Virus record (IMG/VR): IMGVR_UViG_3300030329_002114
Coordinates: 1-64,000 of that record
From: a virus
Strand: one strand, 5' to 3'
Length of the DNA stretch: 64,000 nt
Shown here one piece after another: positions 209 through 58,900 of the stretch; positions within the stretch are counted from its first letter, which is position 1, and every line of letters starts with the position of its first letter. The notes beneath the pieces are model-generated. The model worked only from the letters and a program-made list of their open reading frames with translations. It was not told the origin of the DNA and ran no database searches. Made by a program: the position numbers and the translations under genes.

Positions 209-1306
209 ATGGCGATGACAGTACCGGGACAACAAAGAAGTAACTTTAGACCAACTTGGGGTCAGAGTGATAGATTTCAAAAAGCAATACAAGCCAGATT
301 GCAACTTCAACAAAATGTTGACAAGTTACAAGCAGATCAAAGGTATCGAGATGAATCTTTAAAACTTCAAGAAAAGAGGCTTGATGAAGATTCTGCCTAC
401 AGAAAGCAAACGACACAATTTGCTCAAGAAGAAAAAACAGCAGCTAGGGAACACAGAGAAAAAATGATAGAGTTTGCCCAAGCTGAAAAAACAGCTAGGC
501 AAGAACACAGAGCAAACGTTTTGGCGCATCAAAAGACTTTGCAAACAGAAGCGATTAATGCAAATATTAGAAATGATAACTTTAGAAAATCGAAACTTGG
601 TATTGAAAGTATTAATACTTATGGCGCTAATATATTTAACGTAGACAAAGAAGGTAATATCACACTTCCGCCTGCAGTTGTAAAAGATAAAAGTGGTAAG
701 TATGTAAGAAATCCAGAATTACCTCCTCAAGTACAAGTAGATATAAAAGATAAAAGATACGTTACCTTGCAAGAGCTTTCTAATCAATTAAAAGTAAATC
801 AAGCGATAAAAGAATTTACGGGGCTAAATACTGTAAAAAGTGTAATTGAAAAGAAAAAAGTGGCAGATGCTTATGTCTTTGACCCTTTTAAATTTAGAGT
901 CACAGAGGAGAAGGGGGGTTTTTGGTTCGGAGGATTTAGCGAAAAAGATGCGCTAAATGAACTTATGAAGAAGTCCCAACATTGGAATGAAATTACCAAT
1001 ATAGTTAGCGTTCTTGAAAAAGACAACCCTAAAAGATTAGCAGTTCTTGCAGCTCTTAAAGAGTTGGCTTATGGAAAAGGTGGTTCTAAAGATGATATAA
1101 AACTCACAGGTTTGGCTGCTATTCCAACAGATAAACAGCTTCAGAGAAAAGATTTGCGGGCTGATGTCCGTTTGGGGTATGGGATGCATCTTGGTCAGCA
1201 ATACAAATATTTTCCAACTTGGGGGCCAAACAGGGACGAGTACAGACTAAAGCAAAAAACACTATCTAATATTCTAAAAGCAAGAATTGCTCAATTAGAA
1301 AAATAA
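209..1306 (+). CDS. Coiled-coil virion-associated protein, 365 aa
   Basis: The gene starts at an ATG preceded by an AAGG ribosome site and ends 6 bases before the giant polymerase-like gene. Residues about 25-115 are very rich in Gln, Glu, Lys and Arg with repeating QEEKTAAREHRE-like units, a long coiled coil. The rest is a mixed globular segment with no recognised motif. The protein at 48679 holds the comparable place one gene further upstream of the second giant protein and also has a coiled-coil N-terminal half, so the two may be equivalent. By position it is likely an internal virion or ejection protein. That role is inferred. Confidence 0.7.
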   Translation: MAMTVPGQQRSNFRPTWGQSDRFQKAIQARLQLQQNVDKLQADQRYRDESLKLQEKRLDEDSAYRKQTTQFAQEEKTAAREHREKMIEFAQAEKTARQEHRANVLAHQKTLQTEAINANIRNDNFRKSKLGIESINTYGANIFNVDKEGNITLPPAVVKDKSGKYVRNPELPPQVQVDIKDKRYVTLQELSNQLKVNQAIKEFTGLNTVKSVIEKKKVADAYVFDPFKFRVTEEKGGFWFGGFSEKDALNELMKKSQHWNEITNIVSVLEKDNPKRLAVLAALKELAYGKGGSKDDIKLTGLAAIPTDKQLQRKDLRADVRLGYGMHLGQQYKYFPTWGPNRDEYRLKQKTLSNILKARIAQLEK

Positions 1307-1312
1307 CAATAT

Positions 1313-4300
1313 ATGAACCAATACGAGTTACAGCGTTATATATCTGTATATAAACAAAATCCGTATATATTTGGTGATGACTTTGTAGATGAGATAGAAA
1401 AATCCTCTAAAGAATTTGATATTCCGTTCCAAAGAAATATAGAGGCTGAAGGTGACAAACAAGACAGTTTAGTTAATCAGTTTTTATCAGGTGTATCTTC
1501 AGGGTTTACTACATTAGGATGGGCTGAAGAGCCTACAAGCTCAGCGGGTCAAATCGCACACAGTATGGGGCATTTAATAGGCTTTGCTCCAGCTATTCTT
1601 TCAGGACCTCTAGGATTTGCGGCTAAAAGTACTGGTGTTAAGGCATTTGGGACTGCTGCAAAGTTCCTTAATAGAAAATCAGTTCCTTTCTATCTTGCTG
1701 AAAAAATAAACAAACCCATATATAAAGGCTTAACCAAAGCTGGTGTAAATGTAGACGAGTATTTAAAAAAGGGTAATGTAATTGCTGATATTGCTACTTC
1801 TGCTCAAGAATTGGGTGTAGCATCTGCAATTAGTAGCGTATGGGGTGGTACTGACGAGGTGATGGATTCCTATGTTCATGGTGCAATATTTGGTGGAGCA
1901 TTTGGATCAATCGGTAACTTTGTTAATATGGGCAAAATGATGAATTCAGCAAATCCTGCAGTTCGCAAAGGTGCTGAAGATTTTATATGGAATAAGGTTG
2001 TTAGAGCTGGACTAGGGTCAGCAGTTCAGGGTGGAATGGCAACTGCTCAAGGCGCACCAACATCTGTTCAGCTTTATGAATATTTATTAGGCGGATTTTT
2101 TGGCTATAAGCACCCAAATGCTAAAGTTAAATCTGGAAGACAATATATAGATTCTTTCTACAATAAAGAAAATCATCTTTACGGAGATAAGCTTTTTGGT
2201 AAAGAGAGAGAAATGGTTTATACAGAAGAATACAAAAACCTCGACCCCATTGCTCAAGAATATGTTACAAATCATTTTCAAAAGAGCATAGGTGAAAGAT
2301 TTAAGTATTACAATCCGCAATTAGAACTGTTTAAAGAAGATGACGCATCTGTTGCATCAGTTTTAATGAAAGCTGAATACTTAAATCATTTTAAAGAAGA
2401 AAACTTTGCAAAGCGTAGAAATGAACTTTTAGAAGAACGTAAAAAGGATAAACTATCTGAAGAGGAAGAAACATTAGCTAAGATTAGAACCTTAGATGAT
2501 ATTGACGCTGAGCACCAAAGATTGCAGATTGGAAATATAGCCGCTGAGATTACAGATAAGATAAATGGCTCTAAGGTAAAGATTTCTAATGCTAGTGATG
2601 TTGTTTATAACAAGTTAACAAAAGAGCAAAGAGAAGAAATAAAGAAAGGCAATGTAAATATCATATATGAGGTAATTAGTGGCGAACAAGATAGGACTAT
2701 GGATTTAAAAGAAGCTCGTGACATTTTAAATTTAGATAGACCAAAATCAGATCAGCTTGAAATTGATGCTCCTGTACATATACGAAATATGCTTACAGAG
2801 ATTGAGTCTAATTTAAAAGTTGATAAACCCCAATTGGATATTCTTAATGATATTATTGGTATTTACAATCAGTCTAGAAAAAACAGAGAATCCTTTAAAG
2901 AGTTCTTTAGTCAAATAGAAGTTTCTTACCCTGAATATGTTGCAACAAATAAAACAAAAAGAGAGTTAAAATCGTTTTTTAATAGGGTGTCTGAAGAAAA
3001 ACTGCATGGTCAAATTTCTTATGACCCCGTAGGTAATAAGATAGTCCAGATTAGAACTCACGACTTGAGTGGTAGAAGAGTAGCTGATAATAAACCACCA
3101 GCACCAGATGAAATCCATTTAAAAAATAAAGATTTAGAAGACCCTTTAAAGCCACCAAAAAAGCCAACAAAAAAAAGATCAAGTGACGATATTGAACAAG
3201 AGTGGCTGAATTGGATTTCAACATCTCAATATTCTCCCGATGCTGGAAAAGATATTATACGAAAAGATATAAAGGGCTTTGATGAGGTTCGTTCAAAAAT
3301 AGAATATGCCAATGCAAAAAATATTACCTACGATGAGGCAACAAATACATTCATAGATTCTAAACCCGGAACATCCCAGAAAAAAGGCAAAAAACCCTCA
3401 CAAAAGACATTACCTCCAAATTATCAGATTCAAGAATTAAAGACAGTAAAGTGGGGTGATAAAATTCTCAATCTTTATGATAAAATTTATGATAGAGTGC
3501 AGAAAAAGTTCACTAGGGTTATGAATCGCAAAAGGTGGTGGAATCTTACTCAAAAAACAAATGAGGTAAATGAGTATTATAAAATACCTAAAAAAGATAA
3601 AGGAGTAGAAAGAAAGTTTCCCTATCACCCTAAAGCAATTGAGTCTAAAAATGTAGGTGGAAAAAGAGCTTGGACTGTTAATCTTGTAGAATGGGAAAAA
3701 ATGATTTCAGAGTTAATGAAAATTGACCCCAGAACTCGTGAATTTATCCAAGCAGATTTTAAAGAATGGAACAAAGAATTTGGAGCAGGGAGCAATGCAA
3801 AAACTAAAACTCTTAAAAAGGCTTATGATATTTATCAAAAAGCTTTATTATCGAACTATCTGTACGAACCTTTTGCTCAATTTAAAAATGCTCAAGATAG
3901 AGTAAAAAGAGAAACTTTAATTGCCGCTACTGGGGTATCTCAAAAAATAATTGATAAGTACCCTAACTTTGAAATGGTTATAGTTGACGACATTCCTAGC
4001 GGTCAGCATAAAACAAATAGTAAAGGCATAGAACACGAGTTTTTTTACACAACAAAGGATGGTAAGACCTTAAGTAAAAAACGCTTATATGAGAGTGAAA
4101 TAGACGGTTATGGAGTACTTCCTACGGAGCTTTATAACGAGATATTGAGTGCAAATGGGTTTGACCCTACTACTTCTAGAATAAAGCCAACTATTGCCGC
4201 TTGGGTTAATGGTCAACTGTTTTTATTTAAAGGCGGTTTTCATCCTTCAAAAGCCGAATATGACGTTGCTTTAAAAAAGCCAAACAGAGCAATTGTAATG

Positions 4301-7300
4301 CTTAGTGCCGCCAAAGCTATGCCAAAAGGAACTCAGATTTATCACGGATTAGCTTCTAAAAACCCAGATGGCTCAGTTAAGTATGAATTCAAAAAACGAG
4401 GCACAAATAAAACTGTTAAAAATCCAAGAGCTATTAAGATTAGAATGGAAGATTTGCGAATAGACTATGGAGTTCGTGAAGATTCTCACTCTATAGAAAC
4501 TCAAACAATTAAAAAACAGTTCCACGTGTTATTAAACTCTCTACAGGTTTCTAGGGAAGGTTTTGACTCGTTAATGAATGAAGCTTTTGCTCCCAACATA
4601 GAGGGGAAAACAGAAGCAAATAGAGTTGTTAGAAGTTTATCTGAAAATCCTGAAAACCCTATTCCTGATAATTTTAGAATAAAAGATATTGGCGATAAAG
4701 AATTTGTTTATCTAGTCAACAATCCCGGTCATCCTCTGTTTAGAAAACTTTTAATGGAGATGATTAAAAAAACAAAATTTAGAGAAGTTTCCGATACTTT
4801 TGGTGAAGAAAATAGTCTTATTGAGCTTAATGATTATGTAAATAGACTTCAAAAATGGGCAAACTATTCTGATTTTAATCCTATTATTACAATGATAGAG
4901 CCTGAACTTTATCAAGATATGATTCTTCGCTACAGAAAAAATAAGTATTTATACCCAGAGTGGAAATATTCAGGTGCAATGTGGGGAGCTGGAGTTGATC
5001 CAGTTACTAAAATAAAACACGGAGCGATTAAAAAAGGCACTTTTAAATTAGGTGAGGATGCTGATATTCCTGTTAGTTGGGGGAAAAATGAGACTTTAAA
5101 AAGTCTGTGGAAAAAATATCAATCTAATTTAGAGAAACTTAAGGACCCCAAGCTTAAAAAGGATAAGAAAAAACTTGAAGCCCTTAAGACACAAACTGAA
5201 ACTATTAAAAATGATTTATTAGACATTGCGGTAATGAGAGTTCCATCTCCAGCAGTTAGTGGCACTCGAATGCTCACATTTGACGGATTTGTTAAAAATA
5301 ATGGTAAAAACAAAGATTATGGAGCTTATTTAAACCCCGAAGATCATTACTATTTAGATGGTATGGACGTAGATGGTGATAAAGTATTTATATATCAAGG
5401 TTTACCCGAAAAGTTTAGAGACACAATTAGAAAAAATAAAGATGAGCTTTCTGTTGATATAAATGGCAAAAAAGCTACTTGGGAAAATAAAGCACCAGAC
5501 TTAAATAAAGATTTTGGAACACGTGAAGCTCCTGATTTTATGAAAAGTAGAGTTAGTCAATACCTTCCCTTTGCTTTAAGAAAATCTGGAATTGCATCTT
5601 ATGATGGCAAACAAGGTATGGGTGCAGTTGTAAATGCAAAAACAGTTTTAAACTTTATGACTGCTGATATTATTGAAAATGGTGGAAAAATAACTCTTGA
5701 TTTGATTTCAAGTAAAGGCAAAAAATATGGAACTGTAACCCTTGTAACAGATGAAGCTACATTAAATGGAGTAAAAGGGTTACGAAGAATGGCGGTAGAA
5801 GCGTCGTCAAGAACTGCTGATAGTTCTGAGTATTGGGAAATGATGGATGCTTTAGAAATGAGAGACGTTCTTTTAAAAAGTGCTTTTAGAATAATCCACG
5901 CCAAAGACCTTAAAGGGAACAAAATAGATTTTAAGTATAACGATATTAAAAATACACAGTATGGTGACCTTTCTGATGTAAATAATAAGCTTTATGGCAG
6001 AGATTGGAGAAGGGATAAGGCTTGGGGTATAGAAGAAGTTCAAAGGTCAGTAGAAAACGCATCTTCTAAAGAATACAAAATGAATTCAATATTGTGGCTT
6101 GCTAATAAAATGGCTGGTAGCAGTATAGATGTTCGCTACATAAAAGGCAATAAAGCATGGAGAGAACTTGTTAAGGCTTATAATGAAGTGTGGAAATCTC
6201 CTGAAATACGTCAGTATTTTGCTAGAAAAAAGTTTAAAATAACTCCGCTTTACTTAGAAACGGATTATGTTGAACTGGAAAAAAGAGTTATGAATCTTAT
6301 CGATTCGGAAGAAAGTAAAATGCGTACTATTGACTCTATTTCTGGGAATAATCTTAGAGCAATGGGTTTAAGAAGAGATAAAAATCTCGACCCTCGTTAT
6401 CAGCAATTATTTGATCAAGCTTGGAAAGATGGAGTAATCAAGGCACATAGTCCATTAAAGGAAGCTAAATTATTAATTAACGATGCTATTGATCTTTATA
6501 GTGCCATTGTTCTTGGTAAGAAAGGTTCAGAAATACGTGATTTAATTATCCAAAGTGGAGGCACAGAAAAACAAGCATTAGACTTTTTAGGCAAGTTAGC
6601 TGAGTTTGCAGTTATTCCAAAAGTTCAATATAGAAACAGAATTCAAAAAATAAAAAAGTCTCACGATCCTATGAAATTTGCTACAGATGATGTAGATAAA
6701 AAGATAGCAGATTTTCAAAGGCAGATAAGCGAAGAAGCTAAAAAATTAAATATAGACAGACAAAAAGCATTGGATTATTTTCATTTTTATATGATAGGGT
6801 CAATATATCCTCAACCATATTCAAGCCAACATTCATTAAAGCTTTATAGGGATGCGATTGCTAAAGAAAAGAATAAGCCTACAGAAGGACCAGATAAAAC
6901 AAAATTGAGAGATGATAATTTTATAGCTTGGGCAGAATCAGTAGAGCAAAATTGGAGTAAGTACTATAACAAAACAAGTTTTACACGATTTCCATTAGAA
7001 TCTAAACAAGTTCCTGAGGGTATTAAAAAAGAGTTTATGAGTGGCTTTGGTAAAATGTGGGATGTTATTCAAAGTGACCAACCCCTTAACAAAATTAATG
7101 AATTCTCAGGAGAGGCACTATACCCTGAAACTGTTAAATCTAATCAATCTGGTTCTAGAACTAGAAAACAAATAGAAACAAAAGTTGTTCTTGAAAGATT
7201 TTTTGATAACGTCTTTAAGGGTAAGAAAATTGAAGAACTCCCTAAAGATGTTATACCTAAAGATATACCACAGGTATTAAAAGATTTAATGACTGACCTT

Positions 7301-10300
7301 AAAAGTATGCCTGAGCCTTTTTCTGTAAGAATCGAAGAATTATTTGCTGGATATACATTAGAAGCATTTGGCAAATCTAAAAAGGTATCTGATGCTACTT
7401 GGGATGATATTAGAAATTTTCAAAGATTTATTCGTAGAGCAAAGGTTTCAGCATCAAATTCGCCTAGAGTTAAAAAACTTTACTATTATTTATTTCCTGA
7501 AAGAGTTGGAGAAAAGCAATTAAAGTATGATGTAAGTCAAGTATACAAAAGAACTGTTCCTTATGAACATAAACCCGGTGATATAGCCTTTATTGATATA
7601 AGACTTCCATTTAGCACAATGCAGTATTTAAGTGAGTCTTTTAATCAGATATATAATTTTGAGAATATAGATAAAGAGTATAATCAAGAATACACACAAA
7701 GATTCTATGGGTGGCGTGATCAAATACTGGGCATGGAAAATGGCACAACAGAGTTTTCACAATTGCATAGAGCTGCGATAGCAAAGATGTTAGCTGAAAG
7801 AGAATCTGTAGGTAAACAAGGAAGTAAAGAGTCTAAAAGAGCCCGTAGAGAATTTTATAATGAGCTATGGGAAGAAAACAAACCTTTTTATGAAAGCCTT
7901 AAAGATAAAATTTATAAAATAACTGAAGGTGGAAAACTTGTAGAAAAAACTGGTGCTGAAGTAATGGAGTGGATTGTAACTAAGCACCAAGATTTTTTTA
8001 ATGGGTTTTATCAAAAATGGATAAGAGCATTAGACAGAGAAGGAAACTCTATTTGGGATAGAGTAGATACTCAAAACAAATATGGTATTATTGATGAGCT
8101 TGTAGAGTTTAATAGCTTTGGTAGAATGAACTTAGAAAAGATAAGAAAAAAGCTATTACAACCCGCATCATTTGGTAAGGGCAGCATTATAGAAAGATTG
8201 ATTAATAGTTCTTCGTTGTCTGTTGATTTGCTAAACAGAATACAATATGAAATAATTTTAGAAAATAGAGTAAAGCAAAAAGGGTATAAACCAAACTCAG
8301 TTCAAGCTAAAAAGTTCAGAGAAAGAGTTAGAAAGCCATTATTATCTAACGGAGAGTACAATCCACAATCGTATACCTCTATTGGATATGTAGATGAATT
8401 CTATTGGCCTCAGATGGATCATATGTCTACAAAGCAAAGTAGAGCAAAGGTAAGAGAGTACATTAACAATCAGATAGGGTTTCTTAGATCTGAAGTTGGT
8501 CGCTATGCAGATGATTTATTAAATGGGGTTGTTGAATCCACAGACAAGTATAGAATTAAAAAGCAATTTATTGCTCAAAACAAACAGAGTGTTGTTGAGT
8601 TATTAGAAGGAAATTTAAGCAAAGAAGAGTTTATTAACCGATTTGTTGCACTTCAGGAACTTGGATTTGAAAGAAGTTTTAATTCAAGTACGCTAGAGGA
8701 TGGAGGGGCTGGAGAATTTGCTTACAAATGGCTTGCAAGTAAAAAGAATAGCAGAAGTTCATTAGATGATATAGGGTTTAATAGTAGACCCGGCAGCGGT
8801 AGAGAAAGGGGTGAGTCTCCTATGCCAGCTTTCAGTTTGGAGTTCGATGTTGTAGAGAACTATTCATCACAATGGATTAGTTCTTTTTATAAGAATTTAA
8901 CTGCACTTGTTTCTCACGATGCTATTAACAGATTTTCACAAAAGAATGTTTTATATAAAAAAGAAGATAGAGAAGATTGGGAAATAATGATGAAACTCTA
9001 TACTCGAAATGCAATGGGGCAGTCATCTATTTTCTCTCCAGATGTTATAGGCTTGGGTAAAGATTCTTTAAAAAGAACTCAAGATTTTGTAGCTAATACA
9101 GAAAAGATATTAAAGAAGGAAGAAATAAGTTCTGAACATAGAAAACAATATGAAGATGCTAAAGAGATTCTTAAAAAGGATAAGCGATTAAAAAAGATAA
9201 GAAAGACTGCATATTTTTGGACTAGCGATCAACAATGGGCAAAGCTTTTAAATAAACTTGTTTCTAATCGAGTTGGAGAAAAGTTATTTCCAGATATACC
9301 AAAATCTCCTGAAGCCCGTCAAAGATATTTAATTGATGCAGTTAAAAACATTGGTGCTTTTGAAGCAAAATGGTCTTTAATATCACTTTTATCACACCCA
9401 AAAACAGCAGTAGGTAATCTTTTAGGTGGTAATGTTAATACTATATCAAATAATGGATTACGTCACTTTTTAAGGACAAAGGATAAACCTTTTCTGTATA
9501 ATATTTTTAAAGGTGGAAAGCTTAAAGATGGCACTGAAATAACCCCTGACAATGTTTCTACTTGGCTAAATAGATTTGCTGAAGAATCAGGCGCATTAGA
9601 GTCTTTTATTGTATCTGAAGCATCTCTTGAAAGAGGGTTTAGAGGTAAAAAGGTAAATAACTTTTTATCTGAGTTTATAGAAGAAGTTAGAAAAGATTAT
9701 TCTATGCCAGATCAATCTTTGTACGACATTGCTAAAAAACACGGTATAAACAAAGCATTCGTAGATGGTGGTGCTTGGTTTATGAGAAAATCTGAAAGAA
9801 TATTAAGACGAGATTCTTTTCTTTCGCATTATTTAGCTAACTATGAAATACTAAAGGACATAGTGCCTAATCTTAAATATGATAACCCCTATCTAATAAG
9901 AATGGCAACAGAAGGTGTTAAAGCAACTCAATTTTTATATCACGCATCAGCTAGACCAGCATTTTCAGCAACATCAACAGGGAAGATTTTAACTAGATTT
10001 ATGCCTTTTGCTTGGAATTCAATAAGATTTAGAAGGCTAGCGTTTCAAAGAGCTGCAACATACGGTTTTGATATGAACACACTTCCGGGTAGAAGACTTC
10101 AAAGAATCTTAACACTTGATATGCTTACTTTTGCATTAGCTAATATATTTACTTCATCAATTTTTGATTCAGCATTACCACCTCCTATGTCTTATTTGCA
10201 AGATACTGCTGATTGGGTATTTGGTGACGAAAAAATGAGAGAAAGGGCTTTCTTTAACCAATGGCCTCATCCTGCACTAGCACCATTATCAACAATAACG

Positions 10301-10549
10301 GGTCCTTCACTAAGGTTGGTTTTAGCACCTACTAAAGCTTTAATAAATAACGATTGGGAACCCTTTTTAAACTATCAAGCTTGGACACTTGCTCCTTTTG
10401 GTAGGTTTGCAAGAAGTTTATATAGAACTGCAGAAGTCCCTGAAATGTGGGTAGAAGAACTGACTGGTTTTCCTATACATAGATTAGCACAGAAAATGAA
10501 AAAGGCACGCAAAGAAACAGAAGAAGAATTAACTGAGGTAGAAATCTAA
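1313..10549 (+). CDS. Giant 3078-aa virion protein with double-psi-beta-barrel RNA polymerase signature (copy A)
   Basis: Seen: a first barrel-like block has DGYG at 931-934, K958-P followed by IAA, K973 in FKGGF, and K1001 in SAAK. A second block has R1309-x-P, SGTR at 1316-1319, and D1352-V-D-G-D1356, followed by hydrophobic KVFIY. The same residues recur with almost the same spacing in the 3030-aa protein at 49931. Known: D-x-D-G-D preceded by an R-x-P segment marks the catalytic barrel of multisubunit beta-prime and of single-chain YonO/crAss-type RNA polymerases, whose other barrel carries catalytic lysines. Inferred: a virion-packaged RNA polymerase. Residues 1-110 resemble the N-terminal domain of two B proteins. 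The C-terminal 550 residues, including an LPPP motif, also match the B giant. No clear ribosome site precedes the ATG; expression may be coupled to the gene 6 bases upstream. The gene overlaps the next by 1 base. Confidence 0.75.
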   Translation: MNQYELQRYISVYKQNPYIFGDDFVDEIEKSSKEFDIPFQRNIEAEGDKQDSLVNQFLSGVSSGFTTLGWAEEPTSSAGQIAHSMGHLIGFAPAILSGPLGFAAKSTGVKAFGTAAKFLNRKSVPFYLAEKINKPIYKGLTKAGVNVDEYLKKGNVIADIATSAQELGVASAISSVWGGTDEVMDSYVHGAIFGGAFGSIGNFVNMGKMMNSANPAVRKGAEDFIWNKVVRAGLGSAVQGGMATAQGAPTSVQLYEYLLGGFFGYKHPNAKVKSGRQYIDSFYNKENHLYGDKLFGKEREMVYTEEYKNLDPIAQEYVTNHFQKSIGERFKYYNPQLELFKEDDASVASVLMKAEYLNHFKEENFAKRRNELLEERKKDKLSEEEETLAKIRTLDDIDAEHQRLQIGNIAAEITDKINGSKVKISNASDVVYNKLTKEQREEIKKGNVNIIYEVISGEQDRTMDLKEARDILNLDRPKSDQLEIDAPVHIRNMLTEIESNLKVDKPQLDILNDIIGIYNQSRKNRESFKEFFSQIEVSYPEYVATNKTKRELKSFFNRVSEEKLHGQISYDPVGNKIVQIRTHDLSGRRVADNKPPAPDEIHLKNKDLEDPLKPPKKPTKKRSSDDIEQEWLNWISTSQYSPDAGKDIIRKDIKGFDEVRSKIEYANAKNITYDEATNTFIDSKPGTSQKKGKKPSQKTLPPNYQIQELKTVKWGDKILNLYDKIYDRVQKKFTRVMNRKRWWNLTQKTNEVNEYYKIPKKDKGVERKFPYHPKAIESKNVGGKRAWTVNLVEWEKMISELMKIDPRTREFIQADFKEWNKEFGAGSNAKTKTLKKAYDIYQKALLSNYLYEPFAQFKNAQDRVKRETLIAATGVSQKIIDKYPNFEMVIVDDIPSGQHKTNSKGIEHEFFYTTKDGKTLSKKRLYESEIDGYGVLPTELYNEILSANGFDPTTSRIKPTIAAWVNGQLFLFKGGFHPSKAEYDVALKKPNRAIVMLSAAKAMPKGTQIYHGLASKNPDGSVKYEFKKRGTNKTVKNPRAIKIRMEDLRIDYGVREDSHSIETQTIKKQFHVLLNSLQVSREGFDSLMNEAFAPNIEGKTEANRVVRSLSENPENPIPDNFRIKDIGDKEFVYLVNNPGHPLFRKLLMEMIKKTKFREVSDTFGEENSLIELNDYVNRLQKWANYSDFNPIITMIEPELYQDMILRYRKNKYLYPEWKYSGAMWGAGVDPVTKIKHGAIKKGTFKLGEDADIPVSWGKNETLKSLWKKYQSNLEKLKDPKLKKDKKKLEALKTQTETIKNDLLDIAVMRVPSPAVSGTRMLTFDGFVKNNGKNKDYGAYLNPEDHYYLDGMDVDGDKVFIYQGLPEKFRDTIRKNKDELSVDINGKKATWENKAPDLNKDFGTREAPDFMKSRVSQYLPFALRKSGIASYDGKQGMGAVVNAKTVLNFMTADIIENGGKITLDLISSKGKKYGTVTLVTDEATLNGVKGLRRMAVEASSRTADSSEYWEMMDALEMRDVLLKSAFRIIHAKDLKGNKIDFKYNDIKNTQYGDLSDVNNKLYGRDWRRDKAWGIEEVQRSVENASSKEYKMNSILWLANKMAGSSIDVRYIKGNKAWRELVKAYNEVWKSPEIRQYFARKKFKITPLYLETDYVELEKRVMNLIDSEESKMRTIDSISGNNLRAMGLRRDKNLDPRYQQLFDQAWKDGVIKAHSPLKEAKLLINDAIDLYSAIVLGKKGSEIRDLIIQSGGTEKQALDFLGKLAEFAVIPKVQYRNRIQKIKKSHDPMKFATDDVDKKIADFQRQISEEAKKLNIDRQKALDYFHFYMIGSIYPQPYSSQHSLKLYRDAIAKEKNKPTEGPDKTKLRDDNFIAWAESVEQNWSKYYNKTSFTRFPLESKQVPEGIKKEFMSGFGKMWDVIQSDQPLNKINEFSGEALYPETVKSNQSGSRTRKQIETKVVLERFFDNVFKGKKIEELPKDVIPKDIPQVLKDLMTDLKSMPEPFSVRIEELFAGYTLEAFGKSKKVSDATWDDIRNFQRFIRRAKVSASNSPRVKKLYYYLFPERVGEKQLKYDVSQVYKRTVPYEHKPGDIAFIDIRLPFSTMQYLSESFNQIYNFENIDKEYNQEYTQRFYGWRDQILGMENGTTEFSQLHRAAIAKMLAERESVGKQGSKESKRARREFYNELWEENKPFYESLKDKIYKITEGGKLVEKTGAEVMEWIVTKHQDFFNGFYQKWIRALDREGNSIWDRVDTQNKYGIIDELVEFNSFGRMNLEKIRKKLLQPASFGKGSIIERLINSSSLSVDLLNRIQYEIILENRVKQKGYKPNSVQAKKFRERVRKPLLSNGEYNPQSYTSIGYVDEFYWPQMDHMSTKQSRAKVREYINNQIGFLRSEVGRYADDLLNGVVESTDKYRIKKQFIAQNKQSVVELLEGNLSKEEFINRFVALQELGFERSFNSSTLEDGGAGEFAYKWLASKKNSRSSLDDIGFNSRPGSGRERGESPMPAFSLEFDVVENYSSQWISSFYKNLTALVSHDAINRFSQKNVLYKKEDREDWEIMMKLYTRNAMGQSSIFSPDVIGLGKDSLKRTQDFVANTEKILKKEEISSEHRKQYEDAKEILKKDKRLKKIRKTAYFWTSDQQWAKLLNKLVSNRVGEKLFPDIPKSPEARQRYLIDAVKNIGAFEAKWSLISLLSHPKTAVGNLLGGNVNTISNNGLRHFLRTKDKPFLYNIFKGGKLKDGTEITPDNVSTWLNRFAEESGALESFIVSEASLERGFRGKKVNNFLSEFIEEVRKDYSMPDQSLYDIAKKHGINKAFVDGGAWFMRKSERILRRDSFLSHYLANYEILKDIVPNLKYDNPYLIRMATEGVKATQFLYHASARPAFSATSTGKILTRFMPFAWNSIRFRRLAFQRAATYGFDMNTLPGRRLQRILTLDMLTFALANIFTSSIFDSALPPPMSYLQDTADWVFGDEKMRERAFFNQWPHPALAPLSTITGPSLRLVLAPTKALINNDWEPFLNYQAWTLAPFGRFARSLYRTAEVPEMWVEELTGFPIHRLAQKMKKARKETEEELTEVEI

Positions 10550-12228
10550 TGAATGCAAGAGAAAGACAAATTTATAATCAATTATTTAAAGCCATAGGTA
10601 TTGATCCCAGTTCTTTTAAAACGCCAACTGCAAAACAAAGTCCATATTTTGATGCTCAAGGTAAAAGAATTCCACAGAAAAGAATTAATCAATATGAAAT
10701 AGTTTATGATAGTAAAGGTGAAGAACTTCCAAATCCAGAAGGAAGAGGATTAATTGAGTTAATACCAGCTAGCCCTAGAGATTTAATAGCTGAAACAGTA
10801 GGGGTAGGTATAGGTGAAGCAGTAAACAATCCTGAATTAGGTGCCGTAGGTGGACTTCTTGCGAGTATACTAACTGGTAGACCAAAACCAAAACAACAAG
10901 TTAGTAATCCTTATAATTCATATAGTTCAAATCCTTACCAATATACAAACTACCCTGTAAGAGTTAAAGATAGAGGAGTTGACAAATACACAACGAAGGC
11001 AATAGACTTAAATCCAAACAACCACCCCCTAAACCCAGAAACCTTTATTACAGAAAACACGAAACTTGTTGAACAATTTAAGGATGACCAAGTAGGTAAG
11101 CTTCCCCTTATGGGGTTGCCTAGACTTGAGTCAGGTGGTACGATAAGAGGTTTAGACGAAGTTGATGTTGATATGATTCTAACGAATAAATATGGAACAG
11201 AATCAATTCCTATATTTCGTCAAGGCGACTATGATCAATTTGGGGAAATTAGAGGCATAGAAAATCTTGAGAATGTACGGGGACAAAAACAAATGATGTT
11301 TGGGAATATTGATCTTCAAATGTCGGATGTTGATATTGAAAACCCTGCGCATTGGAGTAAGTGGATCACAGCTAAAAGTCAAGGAGAAGCTTGGGAGCGA
11401 GCACAGAGGTATGTAAGAGATAATCCAGAAAGACGATTAAGTGTAGATTTAACCCCGGGTGGTATTCGTTTTTATGATACCAGTATGGCTGGAATAACAG
11501 ACAAGATGAAAGGCGAGGCTATCAATAATTATATGAAATTTATGGGGGCATTAAAAACTGATCCAGCATATATGAATTTCGAGTTAAGTAGAATAGCTGA
11601 TCGTTTAAATAAAATTTATAAAGGGGCGCCAAGCAAAGGAAAAGGACAGTTTGGAAAATCTTTATTAGATTTTATATCCCAAAAACCTTATGTTTTAGAT
11701 AAGAGTGGAGCTCCACTTTTTACACAGAAAAACTGGGTTAAGATGTCTGGTCAAAACACAAAACCGGGATATAATCCAGTAATGGAAGATGTTGATTGGG
11801 ATAAGATTAAAGGTATGCCAGAATATGTAAAGAAACGATTTCTTGAAACAGGGGGAATACAAAGTGCAATTCGCTTATCAGCTAAGCCAGAACGAATAAG
11901 CAGATGGGCAAGAAGCAAAGCTGAAGCTCCATATACTTCACAGTGGATAGGAGACATTGTAGGCAAAGAATCTACACAAGCATTATTTCCACAAAGCGCA
12001 ATACGAGACAAGGCTAAGATTATAGATCAGTTAAGATATGTGCAAGGCTTGCAAGACCCTGTAAGAAAAGATTGGGGTGTTGGGTTTGGAGATAGCAATC
12101 TACTTGATCCAGTTTTAAGGTCGTTTGAGAATACAGCACAAGAGACAATCAGAAAAAATTTAAAACTAGGGTTATTACCAGCAATACCTACTTTAAATCA
12201 AGAATTTAACCTAGAGGAGAATAGATAA
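10549..12228 (+). CDS. Unidentified late protein, 559 aa
   Basis: It starts at an ATG sharing one base with the stop of the giant protein (TAATG), so translation is probably coupled. The N-terminal 110 residues include a Gly-rich segment, then a Pro/Asn/Tyr/Ser-rich linker (about 115-140), then a long globular region with no motif I recognise. It is the last large gene of the A late operon. No equivalent follows the second giant protein at 59023, so it is specific to the A lineage in this window. A virion role is inferred from position only. Confidence 0.65.
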   Translation: MNARERQIYNQLFKAIGIDPSSFKTPTAKQSPYFDAQGKRIPQKRINQYEIVYDSKGEELPNPEGRGLIELIPASPRDLIAETVGVGIGEAVNNPELGAVGGLLASILTGRPKPKQQVSNPYNSYSSNPYQYTNYPVRVKDRGVDKYTTKAIDLNPNNHPLNPETFITENTKLVEQFKDDQVGKLPLMGLPRLESGGTIRGLDEVDVDMILTNKYGTESIPIFRQGDYDQFGEIRGIENLENVRGQKQMMFGNIDLQMSDVDIENPAHWSKWITAKSQGEAWERAQRYVRDNPERRLSVDLTPGGIRFYDTSMAGITDKMKGEAINNYMKFMGALKTDPAYMNFELSRIADRLNKIYKGAPSKGKGQFGKSLLDFISQKPYVLDKSGAPLFTQKNWVKMSGQNTKPGYNPVMEDVDWDKIKGMPEYVKKRFLETGGIQSAIRLSAKPERISRWARSKAEAPYTSQWIGDIVGKESTQALFPQSAIRDKAKIIDQLRYVQGLQDPVRKDWGVGFGDSNLLDPVLRSFENTAQETIRKNLKLGLLPAIPTLNQEFNLEENR

Positions 12229-12510: not shown

Positions 12511-12583
12511 CATCTGTAACTGTACATAATACTGAACTTATAGGAATCACACTTTCCCCGTACCAGTAGATAAATTTTACTGG

Positions 12584-12601: not shown

Positions 12602-12615
12602 AAAAGGGGGTAAAA

Positions 12616-49200: not shown

Positions 49201-49931
49201 TGAATGGCATAGATCCTTATCAGGTAAGAGAACTGATAGAAGATTATAATAGTAACCCACAGAGATACTCAGATGGGGAGGCAGAAACTATAGCTGTATT
49301 AGCGCAAGCTATAGGTGCTCGTTTTCAAAGAGATGGTAAGCCTTTTCAAAAGGGTTTATTTGATGTATTAGATACTGCTACCTTTGATCTGCTTCCAAAT
49401 GAATTGAGACCAACTTCACGTGGAGAATCTGTCTTTGGAGAAACTGATGCAGAACAATTAGCTAGTGCTTTGGGTATTGGAGCTGGTGTTGTAGGTGGTA
49501 TTGGTGGGGCTTATAAAGGCGGCAGGGGTCTTTTTAATTATTTTAAAAAGAAAAAAGGTCGCAAAGGTGGTAGTGATCCAATATCAAATGTAAGAGAACA
49601 AACTAAATCAAATGTAAGAGAACAAACTAAACTTCTTGGAGAACCTCAACGTTTATTGTCTGGGCAAACTTCTAGACAAACTAGACGCAATAGGTTTCCA
49701 TTAGATTCTAGAAGTGGAAATCCTATTCCTATGACAAGTAGAGCTGGAGATCCAATTCCTATGGGAGGAGATACTCTTAGTAAAATACGTGAGTTTGAAT
49801 ATAATATGGGAATTGGCGATAGTTATTTTGATACGCAAAAATTAATAAACTATGCTGGTTTAAATATTAAACCAAATCAATTAACTAGAAGTCAAAGAAA
49901 TGAAATTATTCAAAGACTTATGGATAGTTAA
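49200..49931 (+). CDS. Small protein sharing an N-terminal domain with the giant polymerase-like protein, 243 aa
   Basis: The GTG start overlaps the previous stop (TAGTG) and the end overlaps the giant gene (TAATG). Its first 110 residues (DPYQVRELIEDYNSNPQRYS, then TFDLLPNELRPTSRGE) align with the beginning of the 3030-aa protein (PYEAIKVQNLIRTYKTNPTMF, TFDLIPKEPRNTGE) and more weakly with the A giant. It also has a Gly-rich hydrophobic segment and two exact tandem 8-residue repeats. It looks like a short paralogue carrying a virion-targeting or ejection domain. Confidence 0.7.
   Translation: MNGIDPYQVRELIEDYNSNPQRYSDGEAETIAVLAQAIGARFQRDGKPFQKGLFDVLDTATFDLLPNELRPTSRGESVFGETDAEQLASALGIGAGVVGGIGGAYKGGRGLFNYFKKKKGRKGGSDPISNVREQTKSNVREQTKLLGEPQRLLSGQTSRQTRRNRFPLDSRSGNPIPMTSRAGDPIPMGGDTLSKIREFEYNMGIGDSYFDTQKLINYAGLNIKPNQLTRSQRNEIIQRLMDS
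49583..49630 (+). repeat. Exact tandem duplication of a 24-base unit
   Basis: Two identical 24-base copies lie side by side in the 243-aa gene and encode SNVREQTK twice. The identity suggests a recent slippage duplication in a linker region. Confidence 0.75.
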
Positions 49932-52900
49932 TGGCATCACCTTATGAGGCGATAAAAGTTCAAAATTTAATAAGGACTTACAAGACCAATCCAACTATGT
50001 TTAATGACGACCAGCTTGATGAGCTGGAACGTCTTGCTGAAAACAATGAAATAGAATTTAAGAGAAGACAAAGCGAATTTTCTTTAAGGCGTGGTCTTCA
50101 ACAGGCACAGGCTGGTTTCATTGAAGGGCTTACTACCTTTGATCTTATTCCTAAGGAACCTCGTAATACAGGTGAAGCTATATTTAGACAACTCGGTCAC
50201 CTTGCTGGTTTTGCTCCTGCAATATTAAAAGCTCCAGTGATGGGAGTTGTTCAGGTTGCTTCTAAAGTTACTGGAAAAGAAGTTGCAGATATAGCTAAGC
50301 AACCTTTTACAAGTGCTGTTTTAGATGGCATTAACGCATTAGATGCGATTGCTGTTCCTATGATAGGATCTAGATTAACTAAAAAAGGATTCGATGCTGC
50401 TCTTACTAAAACTGGAGCAGAATCCCTAGAGTTTTTAAAACGAGGTTCACGAACTAGAGCAATCACAGAAGAAGCCTTAGGGCTTGCATCAGCTAGTGCT
50501 ATTAGCAATATATGGAAGGGTAAAGATGCTATTGTTGATTCTTATATTGGAGGTGCCATCGCAGGTGGAGCCTTTGGTGGTATTGGTAATTTTGTTTCTT
50601 TAGGTAATTTATATAAAGGCACACCTCAACAAGTAGAACAAGCCAATAAGCTTTTGCGTGCAGGTGTAGCCAGTATGTTTATGGGTCTTCCTTCTACCCT
50701 TAGAAACGATCCAACTGAAATGCAGATATATGAATATCTATTAGGTGGTTTCTTTGGATACAATACAAGACCAGCTAAAGAGGTTGAGGCTGGTAAATGG
50801 ATAAATGAAAATAGGGCTAGAGAAGAAATATTTAGACCAGAAACATCTAAAGATTGGAATAAAGTAAATAAGAATGCTCAAGAATTTATTATTCGAGAGC
50901 ATCCTATGACTAAAGAATTAAACTCAGAAGGTCACGGTGGCAGTACTGGTGCTGCTTTGGGTTATTTAGAAAGAAGATTTCCAAATGCTAAATGGAGAGA
51001 AGGAGCATTAAATAATCTTAAGAAAAATAATAAAGAAGCAACAGAATCCAACATACAAGATTTTTACAGAAAGAAAGCTTATGAAGCTTACAGAATAGAA
51101 AAGAAAGTTTTTGAGAATGCTGTATTAGCAAACTCATCTATTATTAATGATGAGAGACTCGATGCTATGGATCAGGCTCAACGTGACCAATTTAAGATTG
51201 AAGATATATCAGACTCTATAAGTAAATCTTCAGATAAATATGGCGACAGAAAAAGCGTTGGAGAAACTATTATTGAAGTAGCTGAAAATTCTTCAGTAAA
51301 TAACGTTCCTAATCGTGAATTGTTTATAAGAGAACTTAGTAATAGGTTTGATTCTAAGACTATAAAAAAATTAGATTCTAAACTTAGGGGTTGGTTTAAT
51401 AACTATAGTCAAAGATTTGTAGAACAAGATATTGTCAATATAGATGGACAGGAATACAGAATTATTACTAAGGAGAAAATAGGCGAAGTAGATGTAGGTG
51501 AAAAGGTAGATGTATTGCCAGCAACATATTTAGTTCCTGAAGGTGAGTTTCGTTTAATGACTCATTTTATAAGGGAAGTCCCAAGTGAAAATGGTCAAGT
51601 AAAGCAAGAAGCAATTAAGATAATGAAGACGGATCTTGTATTTGATTATGGCGTTCCCACTGTTAAAAATAGATTAGATGGCAATGCATATATTAGATTG
51701 CAAAATTTATTAGAAGAGAATGGCAGATACATAGTTAGTGGCATTAAAGATAAAGACTATGTAATGACTGGTCGATTTAGAGATGAGAACTTAACTCTTG
51801 ATAATGTGTTTGATATTTTATCTAATAAACAAGCTGGTATTATAACAAGAAAACAAGTAGAAGACGCTTATAATAGATCGTTAGAAAAAGAAAGAGAATT
51901 ATCTGAGTTTGTGCGTGCAGGTGAATATGAAGCATTAGAAAAACTTCATGAGCGTAAATGGATTTCCAATTTCGTTAACTTAGCCGAAATGAACAATTTA
52001 AAGCTAGAAGATGCTTGGGCTATTATAGACCCAGCTCAAAATTTTGGTAAGAGTGTGGCTGACTTAAATAAGCGTATGTCACTTGTTACTAATAGAATGA
52101 CTCCAATGGTTAAAGAAAGCTTTGAGAATGTAGCAGGGATGAATAAAGGTGAAAAGTTTAATGTAATTCAAATAGAAGATAATTTAGGAATTGGAACTGG
52201 AGTATCAGATACAGATGGATACATGGCTTTTAGACATGATATATTTGATGCAACTACTAAATCATTTGGAAGAGATGTTAAAAACACTGGCCAGAATAAA
52301 CCTGTTATTGCTGCTAAAACACCATATGGATTTTTTGCAACTAAGAGTAATGGTCAAAGGGCTCATGAATCTCTTAATGAATGGATGATGAAGAACGATG
52401 TTCATGCTGTTATATATACAAGTGGATCTAAATTAAAGGGTAATAATCCTATTTCTACTTTAAAGTATGAAAAAGGTAATTATGTTTCTGATAATATTAA
52501 TCGAATAGAAATACCCATAGATAAATTACAAGTAAGCTCTGGTACTTATGAGAATACTAAAAAAGATGTTAGAGGCGCTAGTACGCCTATGCAAAAATTT
52601 GGTCAGGCAAACGAAGAACAAGCATTCGGCTTTGCTGACAAATGGATTGATACTGTAGTAAAACCATCTCTTGAGGGATCTGAAAGAGGTCGGAAAATTT
52701 TAGAGAATTATCAAAAGACTAATGATTTAACAGAAATGTCTAAGGCTTTTGAAAATAAAGATATTAAATTGGAAGAACTTCCTTTTAGATTTGTTATTGA
52801 TACTCTTTTAAAAAATCCTGATTCTAAATTAGGAAGATTTCTTTCTGATAGGTTAATGCGTTTAGAAGTTGAGGGTGAATTAGATAAGACAGTATTTGAA

Positions 52901-55900
52901 GATTCATTTTCACCTGATTCGGACACTGCATTTAGAGAGTATCATAGAACTAATGACTTGTTAGCTGAAGCGTTAAGGGGTTCTTTTGTAGCTAAACACG
53001 CAATGCCTTTTAATAAAAAGAATTATTTCAATGCCTTAAGAAAGTTTGTATTAAAACGATTTGCTAATCCACATATAGAAACTGCAGGTAAGTCTTGGTT
53101 AAAAGGCTATACTCCTGAGATGCTTAATTTTTTTGACATAGATCCTTATTCTACTACTCAAGCTACTATAGTAAAGCCTGATTCAGCAAATTCTATAAAT
53201 ATAATGAGGGGCTCTAAGTATGGAAACCCTTTTATCATGCCTTCTGTTTACGATAAGAGTCCATCCTATTATAAAAATAAAGGATTTATAAGAGCTGGGA
53301 GCACGAAAGAAGCTACAGAAAGATACGAAAGCTGGTTAAGGGGTAAAACTGACAAAGGATATATGCCAGATAAAAGAGATGGAATATTAAACGATATTAG
53401 ATCTGGAAAATTATCTGGTAAATCCCTAGGTTATTTTAAACCTGAAGCAAAAGATAGCCATGCAGTTCGATTAGTTAAGCTTATTAATGAATGGTCTCCA
53501 AGAACTTTGAAAGAAGGAGAAATATACCTTGATAACGGTTTTCAACAAATGCCTGTGGTATTGCTCGGTAAACAATACACTCTTGGCGAAGTTTGGGATA
53601 TGTATACTGGGCGAAAAACCATGCCTGATGGTGTTAAAAAACCAACTAAAGAGGAGTGGAATGATGCTTTTACTTTTCTTGCTATACGTACCCCTGCTGA
53701 TTCAATGTCTGGTACACGTAAGCTACGATTTAGAGGCTTTACTGGGCAAAGAGGAGCAGGTTCCATTACGCACCATAAAGACAACAAGTATCTTGGTGGT
53801 GCAGATAAAGACGGAGACAGTATTAAAATCTTTCAAAACATGAACAAAGATTTAATTAAATACTTTGAAAATGTAAAAGACGAAAGAGGGCATTGGGCTG
53901 ATTTTCTCAATGTTAAAAAAGATTTTATAGTAGATCTTGAAGGTGCTGAAGTTGAGTATTATAAAAATATAGTATCAACTAATTACAAGCAACTTGATTC
54001 AGAAATTAATTGGGTTCGAGGTGGTAAAAGTGGTAAGCGCCCTATTTTTACTCAATATTATGGAGATAAAAATACGGAATATTCTTATACTGAATCAGGG
54101 AAGCGTGGCGACTGGACTCCCCTAGAATGGACTCCAGAGTTGATTAAATTAAAACGTGAAGTAGAAAGAATAACTGGTTATAAATTCAATAGTGCTGTTG
54201 TAAATAAGTATAAGGATGGTAAAGATAGTATAGGTTTCCATAGAGACAATGAACCAGAGTTAATGAGGTCTGACAATAGAGGGCCTGTTATAGCTTCTAT
54301 TAGTTTTGGAAGTAAAAGAAATTTTATATTAAAAGATAATACTGGTAAAAAAACTTCATTTGCCTTGGAGAATGGTGATTTGTTTTTAATGAAAGGCGAT
54401 ACTCAAAAAAATTATACTCATGGAATAGCTAAAGAAAATACAACATCCCCTAGAATAAATATTACATTTAGAAGAACTAATTATGGAAGAAGGGATCCAA
54501 GAAAAAATCCTCAACCATTCAGAACAAAAACAAAAACATACGAAGAAGCATTAGACGAATTGTTTAAGGGTGATGTATCTCAACAAGTTGTAGATGATTT
54601 TAATAAAAATAAAATTATGATGTTTTCCCCATCTTTTAGATTTGAAGTTGCAAGAAATGCTAGTATGGGCAAGGGTGGTTTAGGTTTTGGTTTAACTGCT
54701 AAGATTGATCTTCAGAATATGTATGATTATGTTAAAGCAAAAGGTGGGTCTATTAAACTTAAAAACCCCAAGGGTGAAGTTTTTACATTGGAAATAAAAC
54801 ATAATTCACCGTATGAAGGAGTTAGTGCTCATAGATTTTTCTTAGACTTAGGAACTAAGGTAGTAAATGTATCAGCAGATGCAAGCAACGATCCTAACTT
54901 AAGACCTTATAGTGAGTATAGAGATATGCTTTCTTCTTCTATATTTAAAATAAACAATAAAGATGCAAAATTTGGTCAGATTAAAAATCTTGTTAAAGGT
55001 ACGCCATTAGAAGGTATTATGATGTCCAATAGAAATATTAAACCACATCAAAAATATCTAAATGAAAAAACTAATGAGCGTGAAGCTCCAGATGTTTTTC
55101 AAGTGCTTGATAATATTAATAAAGCTAATGAGTTAATGTTTTCAGATCTTGATGATAGTTTTTTTGTACGCACAGTAAATCCTAAATTAAATCAATTACT
55201 ACAAGAATCTGGATTTAAGGTTGGTAATTATTTATTTCCAGAGTTACAAAGGGCTCATAAAATTTTATATGATTCTTTTATAACAAGTGAAGTTGAAGGT
55301 ATCCCAAAAAACCCAGATGCATTATACAAGTGGGAGGTTGTAGATAAAAAAGTTACAGGTAGGTTGATAATAAACAATAATAAAACTTCAAAGCAGTTAG
55401 AAGGATTCTATAAAATACTTGCAAAGGAGTTATCTTTTACAAGTCCTAATCGTATGAAAAATCTTTTATCAGAAAAAAGTCGAAATTTTAACCCAGATCA
55501 AGCCTTAGATTTTTTAGGTAAGGATATGGGTCAGTATGCTTTAATGGAACTATTAACTGGGCAATACGTAGCTGTGCAGAATGCATTTGCAAAACAAGGT
55601 AGGAATGTGAATACAGTTATTGAACTCCTTCCTGAAATAAAAAAGAATGCATATGAAATAAAAAGACTAGCTGACACAATCTCCAGAAGAAGAGACGGTG
55701 GTGACAATGTTAGGAATGTTGATTTAGATGCATTGATATACAAACATAAGACTAGACTAGCTAACCTTGAAAGAGCTCAAGGACTAGAAGAGGGTATGTT
55801 ACAAAACTATTTACATTATTGGCTATTAAGTCCTATAAGAGCGCTTGTAAAAGGTCAAAATAAACCTCAGTATTATAAAGCAATACATGGGTCTCAAATG

Positions 55901-58900
55901 ATACCAATGTCTGTTAAAAGAAATTTTTACAATCGCATGGATAAAATATATAAACGTGCTCAAAGCTCTGATATGTTAAGTATAAAACAAGCAGATTTTA
56001 AGACAGCTTTAAATAAATTAGAGTCTACTCAAAAATTATCTACTACAATAAATGAAGCTATTAAAAGTAAATCATTAGAGAACCTTGCTTTATTTGAATC
56101 TGATTTAAAAGAAGTTAGAAAGTTTCAAGAGTCTGTAAAGAATAACTCATTAATGGATAGAGACTTTAATGAGTGGTATACAGCTTTTACAAAGAACATG
56201 GTAGATGGCCCCACTAAAGATGCTACAACTATAACAATGCAAGATATTAAACTTGTCAATAGGTATCTAGATAGTTTAAATACAAGTAAAAACATGGAGT
56301 TAAAATTAGCTCAGTTTTATCAACATCCCTTAACTGTAGATGAGATAATGCAGTCAAAGGGCTTATTTGGTGGATATACAAAGACTATTAATGAACCAGT
56401 CTTAACAAGTAAGGGTTTAACAAAACGTAATGTTAAAGTTATTATGTCTCCTGTTGGTAATATAGCTAATTATTTTAAAAAATCAGAAGCTGGTATTAAT
56501 TTATATGAAGGTCGCATGAAATTAGAAACTACTGCTATAGATAAAATATTAAATAAGTTAACTCCCAATCAAAGAAGGCAATACGCAGAAGCTCTATTTG
56601 CTTATCGTGAAGGTATTGATAAGGATGGAAAACCATATTCATTAAAAAATGTTCCTAAAGAAATCAATATGACAAAGTTTAAAAAACTTGATACGGAGCT
56701 TACTAAATTTTGGAAGCAAATGGAAAACAGTTGGATAACTACGAAAGATATTAACGGCAAGCGTTTTAATTGGTCTAGGGTAGATAAAGAAAAAAGATAT
56801 GGTAAGGTCAATGAATATATTGAATACGATTCTAATGGTAAGTTTAACTTTAAAAAGTTTCATGATAAAGTTATAAACGCTAGAAATCAATCTAAAGATA
56901 TTATTAGAAATGTTGGCATTGAGGGTGTCTTAAGATATAGAATGGAAGAATCTATTGAAAAAGAAATCTTATCAGATAAGTCAATTAAGAATAAGAAAGC
57001 TTATAGAGAGATGAGAAGATCTGAATTATCAAGACCTTATCAAAATAGATCTTATGAAAATTATGTTCATCATTCTTTTAATAATGCATCAGAAGGTTTA
57101 TTAAAAGAGCAAGCTGAATACGTTGCATCTATTAAAGACCCTGCAGAAAGATCAAGGATTGCGAGACTGCTACAAACAGAAAATCCTTTTATTAACGTAA
57201 ACGATATTTTAGAAATATCTATAGAAGGTAAGACAAAAGATTTTAATAAGTACGCAGTCTACAGTGAAGTTCTTGAAAAGCAAGGAGACATTCCCTATAA
57301 ACGATCCTTTGATTCTCTTCAAGATTATCAAAATAAGGCTATAAATGGATATTTTAGAAATCTAATGAAGCTAAAAGCTCAAAATGAATTAGATCTTATG
57401 GTTAAAAACACTAAAGATTATAAGCCCTCTAAGCATGAGCAAAAAGAATTTGAAAAATTATACAGAGGTAGTAAACTACCAAAAGAACTTCGTTATAATA
57501 GCCATGTAGATGTTTGGGCTGATTATGTCAGGCTTTATGCTAGAGATTCTTTAGGCAACCAATCGTTCTTAAGTGACAGAATGGTAACTCCTCAAGGTAA
57601 AAAATTATTACATTTAAACAAGAAAAATTTATGGTATGGAACTTCAGATGAAGCAATTATCAATAAGATGGAAAAGCTATACAAAAGTAAGCTAGGTAAG
57701 GAAAGAAATATTCCATTTTTTAATAAAGATGCGATACCAAAAGATCCTGTTGCAAGAAAAGAATACTTTAGTCGTGTGATTCATAACTTAGGTAGAATGG
57801 AAGCTCAGTATGAGTTATTAACATTATTAGCTAATACTGGTACATGGACAACCAATATATTTGGTGGAGCTACTATGACCATTGGTAGTGCTGGTGCAAA
57901 GAACTATGCAAATTCATTTAACAACAAAAGAGTTTATGATACATTGTTAAGTGATGCCAATGGTAATCCTGTATTAAAACTACTAGATGGAACAAGCGTT
58001 AGAAATAGAAAACAATTACTAACATTTTTAGAAGAGCGTGGTGTTATAGATAACTTTATTAAAAATGAATTTGAATATAATGATAGGCTTAAGATAGGTT
58101 TAAAGAAAGCTGGTGTTAGCATAAAAGACTTTCAACGGGATTTAATTAAAGCTGCAAAGAGTAAAAAAGGCAATCGTGATGAGAGTGTTATGGAGGTTGT
58201 TAAAAGATATGGCGTTACAGATTTAATGCTTGAGGCTGGTGGTTTCTTAATGAAACAATCTGAACGTGTTAATCGACTTAATGCTTTTATAGCTCATGGT
58301 TTGCAGGCTGTTGAAGGCTTTAAAGAAGCTGGTAAAGAATTATCTTTAGCTGATCAATATGTTTTTGAAAAAGCAGAGCGTGGAATTGAAATGACTCAAT
58401 TCTTATATCAAAATGCTCATAGACCAGCGTTTATGAGAACTTCAATGGGTAAAGTTCTCGGTAGATTTAAGCTATTTGTTTTTAATAGTGTTCGTATGCG
58501 TAAAGAATTTTATAAACAAGCTAAACTTAATGGCTTTAAACAAGGATCTGAATCTTATGAAAGATTTAAAGATACCTTTGCTATTGACATGATGATGTAT
58601 GCATTAGGCAGTGCATTCATGTTCAGCTTGTTTGATACTACATTGCCACCGCCTTGGGACTGGGTGCAAGCTTTGGCTGATTACACTTTTGGTGATAAAC
58701 GTGAACGTGAAATGGCATTTTTCGGTTCAAAGCTTGGCCCTCTTAATGTATTAAAACCTCCTATAGCTAGAGTTCCTGAAGCCTTTGGAGAGCTATTAAC
58801 TGGGCAATACGAGGATTTTACTAATTATACTGTCTATACCATGTTTCCATTTGGAAGAGGAATCAGGCAGATAAAACAGCTAACAGATGATAGACCGTTT

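Follow-up and report, generated by a model that had tools for sequence, protein, structure and literature searches.

A predicted two-barrel RNA polymerase within a giant late protein of small marine podovirus-like phages

The stretch of viral DNA analysed here (the window, 64,000 nucleotides) makes up the opening 64 kb of a virus record of 88,986 bp, and it carries a gene for a giant late protein, giant A, whose fold and membership in the two-barrel (double-psi beta-barrel) RNA polymerase superfamily we regard as almost certain. In the reading that we favour and hold to be probable, giant A is a virion-delivered, single-chain two-barrel RNA polymerase set in a polyvalent-type late protein and active in early transcription; catalysis, a DNA template, packaging, ejection and the early-gene role are the parts of this reading that we infer, whereas the conserved motifs, the predicted fold, the gp66 homology and the place in the late operon are shown by the analysis. 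The carrier is a small marine virus of bacteria, a phage of ~45 kb that does not belong to the Crassvirales. To our knowledge, virion-carried two-barrel polymerases have been found in few phages, namely the crAss-like phages (~100 kb), Thermus phage P23-45 (84 kb) and jumbo phages. The parts of giant A and its neighbours, in window coordinates, are as follows.

209..1306, + strand: late gene directly upstream of giant A, without a family match
1313..10549, + strand: giant late protein A, 3,078 aa (open reading frame and translation; family of 98 homologues)
1313..2182, + strand: N-terminal ~290 residues of giant A, conserved in copy B and most family members (37% identity to copy B; in 60 aligned members)
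3968..4480, + strand: predicted first (lysine) barrel, ~residues 886-1056 (AlphaFold2 strands; gp66 lysine-barrel profile)
4103..4114, + strand: DGYG, residues 931-934 (D931 in 96/96, G932 in 89/96)
4184..4186, + strand: K958 (96/96; paired with gp66 K1012)
4229..4231, + strand: K973 (96/96; paired with gp66 K1027)
4313..4315, + strand: K1001 (96/96; paired with gp66 K1065)
4970..5482, + strand: predicted second (catalytic, DxDxD) barrel, ~residues 1220-1390 (AlphaFold2 strands; gp66 profile)
5237..5269, + strand: R1309-x-P to SGTR1319 (R, P, G1317 and R1319 in 98/98)
5366..5380, + strand: D1352-V-D-G-D1356 metal motif (three Asp in 98/98, Gly variable; paired with gp66 D1361/D1363/D1365)
5567..5677, + strand: bridge-helix-like helix with GKQGMG, residues 1419-1455 (37-residue model helix; local match to the gp66 GKSGVG profile, E 0.0027)
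8750..10546, + strand: predicted all-helical C-terminal domain, polyvalent/PLxRFG-like (AlphaFold2 pLDDT 76; Foldseek; PLxRFG match in copy B)
10106..10165, + strand: recurrent hydrophobic helix, residues 2932-2951 (hydropathy)
10549..12228, + strand: late gene directly downstream of giant A, without a family match

Relatives of giant A were found by scanning IMG/VR and GTDB contigs, nearly all of the hits being viral metagenome contigs, and the resulting family comprises 98 non-identical sequences, each of at least 1,200 residues, among which core identity to giant A drops to 16-20%. The motifs from which the original prediction set out (DGYG at 931-934, K958, K973, K1001, R1309-x-P1311, SGTR at 1316-1319 and D1352-V-D-G-D1356) all lie where it had placed them. 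In the alignment of the 98, D931, K958, K973 and K1001 are invariant in the 96 homologues that cover them, and R1309, P1311, G1317, R1319, G1350, D1352, D1354 and D1356 are invariant throughout. The second-round search patterns included R-x-P, SG and Y-L-G-x-x-D-x-D, so that this share of the conservation arose partly by selection. None of those patterns contained D931, any of the three lysines, R1319 or D1356, and the first six homologues, recovered mostly with other patterns, already possessed them; conservation of the motifs exceeds chance. The segment around D1352 had been read as the DxDGD metal motif, of which the aspartate triad stood and the glycine did not: residue 1355 is Ser in 44, Ala in 28, Gly in 13 and Ile in 13 members, with Gly present in all eight members of giant A's own clade. 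The family motif is accordingly DxDxD rather than DxDGD.

Neither the core of giant A nor that of its counterpart in the window, copy B, has a polymerase match in PHROG, Pfam or NCBIfam, and tblastn against 50,697 phage genomes returned no core match, the AlkB insert of copy B being the sole match. For the core, single-protein searches from giant A yielded no usable result, and searching PDB sequences with the family profile (hmmsearch) was negative bar a spurious match to SKN-1 (E 0.049), so the polymerase link needs profile-profile or fold comparison. That no family library labels the core a polymerase, along with the negative search of PDB sequences, would suit the view that an unrelated structural protein has come to resemble a polymerase in its DxDxD and lysine motifs by chance or convergence. 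We strongly disfavour that view, as three independent lines agree, namely a confident fold that matches QDE-1 first, a profile match to gp66 far above controls, and the invariance of the residues. The missing core matches in the three libraries and among deposited phages also fit the earlier suggestion of an undescribed branch; within the open-access literature we found no published description of these viral sequences, and a prior description elsewhere is possible.

The enzyme with which the family shares a recognisable profile is gp66 of the crAss-like phage phi14:2, the 2,180-aa gp077 of KC821624 and PDB entry 6VR4, labelled 'DNA-dependent RNA polymerase'. Its metal motif is DFDID, in which Ile replaces the Gly of the cellular enzymes and is near-invariant across 74 gp66 relatives; the DxDGD glycine is therefore not a defining feature of the superfamily. 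A comparison with gp66, proposed along with the original prediction, was made between family profiles with hhalign and gave a match (96.2%, E 2.1e-9, score 93.2, 421 columns) far above ten reversed or column-shuffled controls, which score 14-21. The motifs fall in register, with K958/K973/K1001 paired with K1012/K1027/K1065 and D1352/D1354/D1356 with D1361/D1363/D1365. Taken alone, the lysine barrel matches at 95.3% (E 2.4e-8) and the aspartate barrel at 67.7% (E 4.9e-5), the bridge-helix segment reaching only E 0.0027. Both proteins are late giants with the polymerase on a single chain, in which a lysine barrel is followed by a DxDxD barrel and then a bridge helix, and they share K-x14-K spacing and a DxDxD loop without the glycine. 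They differ in that identity across the aligned core is ~13%, and in that the core of the present family is flanked by other domains, with an apparently polyvalent-type C-terminus. Further, whereas Crassvirales genomes are ~100 kb, the carrier phage has a ~45 kb genome with a P22-type portal, an SU10-type capsid protein and an integrase, which upholds the earlier remark that it is not obviously crAss-like and points to a sister branch rather than a crAss phage enzyme. Two-barrel virion polymerases occur in crAss-like phages (PMC7886860, PMC10172136), and gp66 itself enters the cell alongside the DNA and there carries out early-gene transcription (PMC7886860).

Residues 790-1640 of giant A, supplied to AlphaFold2 with a 71-sequence alignment, yielded a model with a mean pLDDT of 89.0 and a pTM of 0.88. 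Judged by its structural matches, the model has the overall fold of two adjacent double-psi barrels; DxDxD sits in a loop preceding a strand, and the 37-residue helix 1419-1455 comes after it, as expected of a bridge helix. In a Foldseek search against PDB, ranks 1-11 are all QDE-1 chains (7Y7S, 7Y7R, 2J7N, 5FSW and others; E 2.5e-7 to 4.5e-6, probability 1.00, aligned over 654-978 columns), with bacterial beta-prime chains ranking next; 6VR4 is absent among the best 50 PDB matches listed. Whole-chain TM-scores to QDE-1 are low (0.29-0.37), for which differing domain positions could be responsible. The two-barrel polymerase first proposed from motifs is thus supported by both the confident model and the gp66 profile match. 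In BFVD, the best Foldseek matches (E down to 1e-31) are unnamed proteins with accessions beginning A0A516L or A0A516M, followed by proteins of crAss-like phages (cr118_1, E 3.9e-11). Two of the unnamed proteins, A0A516LW39 and A0A516LAI4, match the C-terminal domain as well as the core, indicating that the architecture of giant A is already in UniProt, nameless in the tables used.

QDE-1, together with the cellular RNA-dependent RNA polymerases (2J7N, 7Y7S), is the best solved-structure match and has conserved lysines in its first barrel (DPBB1; K743 and K767) and three aspartates in DPBB2 (D1007, D1009 and D1011) (PMC1750930). Judged by order and context rather than by a computed alignment, K973 and K1001 would correspond to K743 and K767. 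QDE-1 differs in being a eukaryotic RNAi enzyme with ~10% identity, a DLDGD-type loop and the low whole-chain TM-score; the crAss/QDE-1 branch has been proposed as the origin of the eukaryotic RNAi polymerases (PMC7281927). As QDE-1 is an RNA/DNA-dependent RNA polymerase, its standing as best solved match would also be in keeping with an ejected polyvalent protein that retains the fold for DNA or RNA binding, or for an RNA-templated or primase-like activity, and not for early transcription. The loss of the DxDGD glycine in 85 of the 98 members and the AlkB and DUF4326 domains inserted in some of them lean the same way. We nevertheless consider such another function very improbable, given that all three Asp and all three Lys are invariant, which argues for retained catalysis, and that the crAss enzyme, an active RNA polymerase, likewise lacks the glycine.

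Other phage polymerases provide further points of comparison. The P23-45 protein gp96 is a virion polymerase fused to a tape measure protein (PMC10770324), and, as predicted for giant A, has a two-barrel polymerase, with DxDGD, within a giant virion protein (PMC10770324); it differs in the tape-measure fusion and in coming from a long-tailed phage, and as a single sequence it showed no significant match to the family. YonO of SPbeta is also a single-chain two-barrel polymerase, with DNDGD, but it is a stand-alone protein of 839 aa; the likeness to YonO drawn in the original prediction was not recovered by sequence comparison, its single sequence giving no significant match (E 0.058), although in that alignment, itself not significant overall, its TDGCG fell against DGYG. 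N4 gp50 and the large polyvalent proteins are giant virion proteins with a mid-chain polymerase and polyvalent-type domains (PMC5512222), a layout that giant A probably shares; the N4 virion RNA polymerase is of the unrelated T7 type. The account of polyvalent proteins with RNA polymerase modules in PMC5512222 covers the N4-type (T7/N4) enzyme only. A T7/N4-type polymerase was rejected for giant A, since there is no match in PHROG, Pfam or NCBIfam and the fold is two-barrel.

The carrier genes include TerL, a P22-type portal, an SU10-type capsid protein, a weak internal-virion-protein match and tail-fibre-like genes, as well as a DnaB-type primase-helicase, a Sak annealing protein and an integrase beside tRNA-Gly. 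The first-listed TerL match, MW202796 (26%), was set aside, its phage having no comparable giant gene. A tRNA-Gly(GCC) followed by a tyrosine-type integrase gene lies at 12438-13503, an arrangement kept in contig L001; it is probably a tRNA attachment site, and the phage hence temperate. A metallophosphoesterase is encoded in the late operon at 42824-43585 (PHROG 221, E 3e-31; also 'DNA transfer protein'), and phi14:2 too has one among its structural genes.

The giant gene follows the head and tail genes, and is the last-but-one and largest gene of the late operon. The C-terminal 599 residues of giant A, which AlphaFold2 predicts to be all-helical, match 'large polyvalent protein-associated' proteins in Foldseek (E ~5e-4), and the corresponding part of copy B has a weak NCBIfam PLxRFG/tail-700 match (E 8.7e-7; 27.8 bits against a cut-off of 100). 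By hydropathy, each of the seven family members inspected has the hydrophobic helix 2932-2951, and gp66 has no such helix. From the late-operon position and the apparently polyvalent-type C-terminus we infer delivery with the DNA. The indirect case for virion presence leaves room for an alternative in which the two-barrel polymerase stays unpackaged, as a late product transcribing late genes inside the infected cell, and stand-alone non-virion two-barrel phage polymerases do exist, such as YonO (PMC5467207) and P23-45 gp64 (PMC10770324). We rate this as unlikely: a non-virion polymerase would normally be smaller and the product of an early or middle gene, whereas giant A is encoded by the largest gene of a late operon and apparently fused to a polyvalent-type C-terminus, the arrangement of the N4, crAss and P23-45 virion polymerases (PMC5512222, PMC10770324).

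TerL, portal, capsid and replication genes are each present twice in the 88,986-bp record, which also holds a second giant gene:

49931..59023, + strand: giant protein B (copy B), homologue of giant A, 3,030 aa, second phage unit, with DUF4326 and AlkB-like inserts
53804..53818, + strand: DKDGD of copy B, residues 1292-1296 (alignment)

A 47-kb contig (G001) matches window positions 28.8-43.6 kb and then 0.2-27.7 kb, in order, at 72-93%; another (L004) matches from ~41.6 kb onward, giant B included; and the record end (88301-88986) is 87% identical to 40944-41620. Most likely, the record joins two related ~45-kb phages at ~41-43 kb, where the units are alike. The duplicate gene sets and the two contig matches led us to reject one phage equipped with two polymerases and to favour two joined genomes. 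On that view each phage has a single polymerase, and copies A and B probably come from different genomes. The two proteins share 37% identity over the N-terminal ~290 residues and 27% over the C-terminal ~590, and their catalytic segments align. In copy B the catalytic segment is surrounded by two inserted domains, DUF4326 and an AlkB-like 2OG-Fe(II) oxygenase domain (53183-53392 and 54068-54472), which, with the weak C-terminal PLxRFG match, make up its only library matches; about ten further members of the family have AlkB-like or DUF4326-like segments, which close relatives lack.

Two family members are filed under cellular assemblies, a Prochlorococcus single-cell genome (L030, QCPL01000010.1, 46,061 bp) and a Flavobacteriaceae MAG (L031, DIAL01000073.1), both matches sitting on short contigs. 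A prophage search of 292 genomes of the former assembly's phylum and 400 of the latter's family matched only the starting assemblies, so that both members may be co-sorted or co-binned virus.

A search of the early region for phage-specific promoters found none, which counts against the favoured reading: direct repeats there form only short two-copy families, and sigma-70-like sites there show no excess (80 against 77 +/- 8.8 by chance). An element of ~102 nt lies on the - strand at 27420-27521 and 59971-60072, 97% identical between the otherwise diverged phage units, and recurs in five other contigs (L069, L067, L011, L258 and L107). Its ends are complementary (GGGGCA...TGCCCC), 96.9% of cells pair across the seven sequences, and six pairs change on both sides, a pairing share and a number of two-sided changes that none of 500 shuffles reaches. 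The element thus has the appearance of a structured RNA conserved on the early strand, and has no Rfam match.

Under the favoured virion-delivered reading, the middle third of giant A (~residues 850-1560) would belong to the QDE-1/crAss-gp66 clade as a DNA-dependent RNA polymerase with both barrels on one chain. Three lysines would come from the first barrel and the DxDxD metal triad from the second, with a bridge-helix-like segment after it. Copies of the protein would be packaged in the phage head and, alongside or before the DNA, would pass through the portal and short tail in partly unfolded form. In the cytoplasm they would regain their fold, perhaps held at the membrane by the hydrophobic C-terminal helix, and would transcribe the early operon at a stage when host RNA polymerase is not yet required. 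Our confidence in this reading draws on the invariant catalytic residues, the place in the late operon, the apparently polyvalent-type C-terminus and the precedents of gp66 and P23-45 gp96.

The family presents the enzyme class of gp66 in a different phage lineage, with half the genome size and a different protein chassis: about a hundred metagenome sequences place it with ~45 kb phages that have an integrase and a P22-like head. We regard as evenly balanced the broader proposition that marine podovirus-like phages, small and apparently temperate, form a widespread and undescribed clade that delivers its two-barrel RNA polymerase in a polyvalent-type ejection protein and starts early transcription without host RNA polymerase, the enzyme being a deep branch, tolerant of Ser, Ala or Ile at the DxDGD glycine, beside the crAss/QDE-1 lineage. 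The confidently predicted fragment of ~850 residues offers material for expression and testing. The family is a second phage lineage related by recognisable sequence to the crAss/QDE-1 branch; it shows that the catalytic loop can do without its glycine, and suggests that even a compact phage may carry its own transcription start-up machine.
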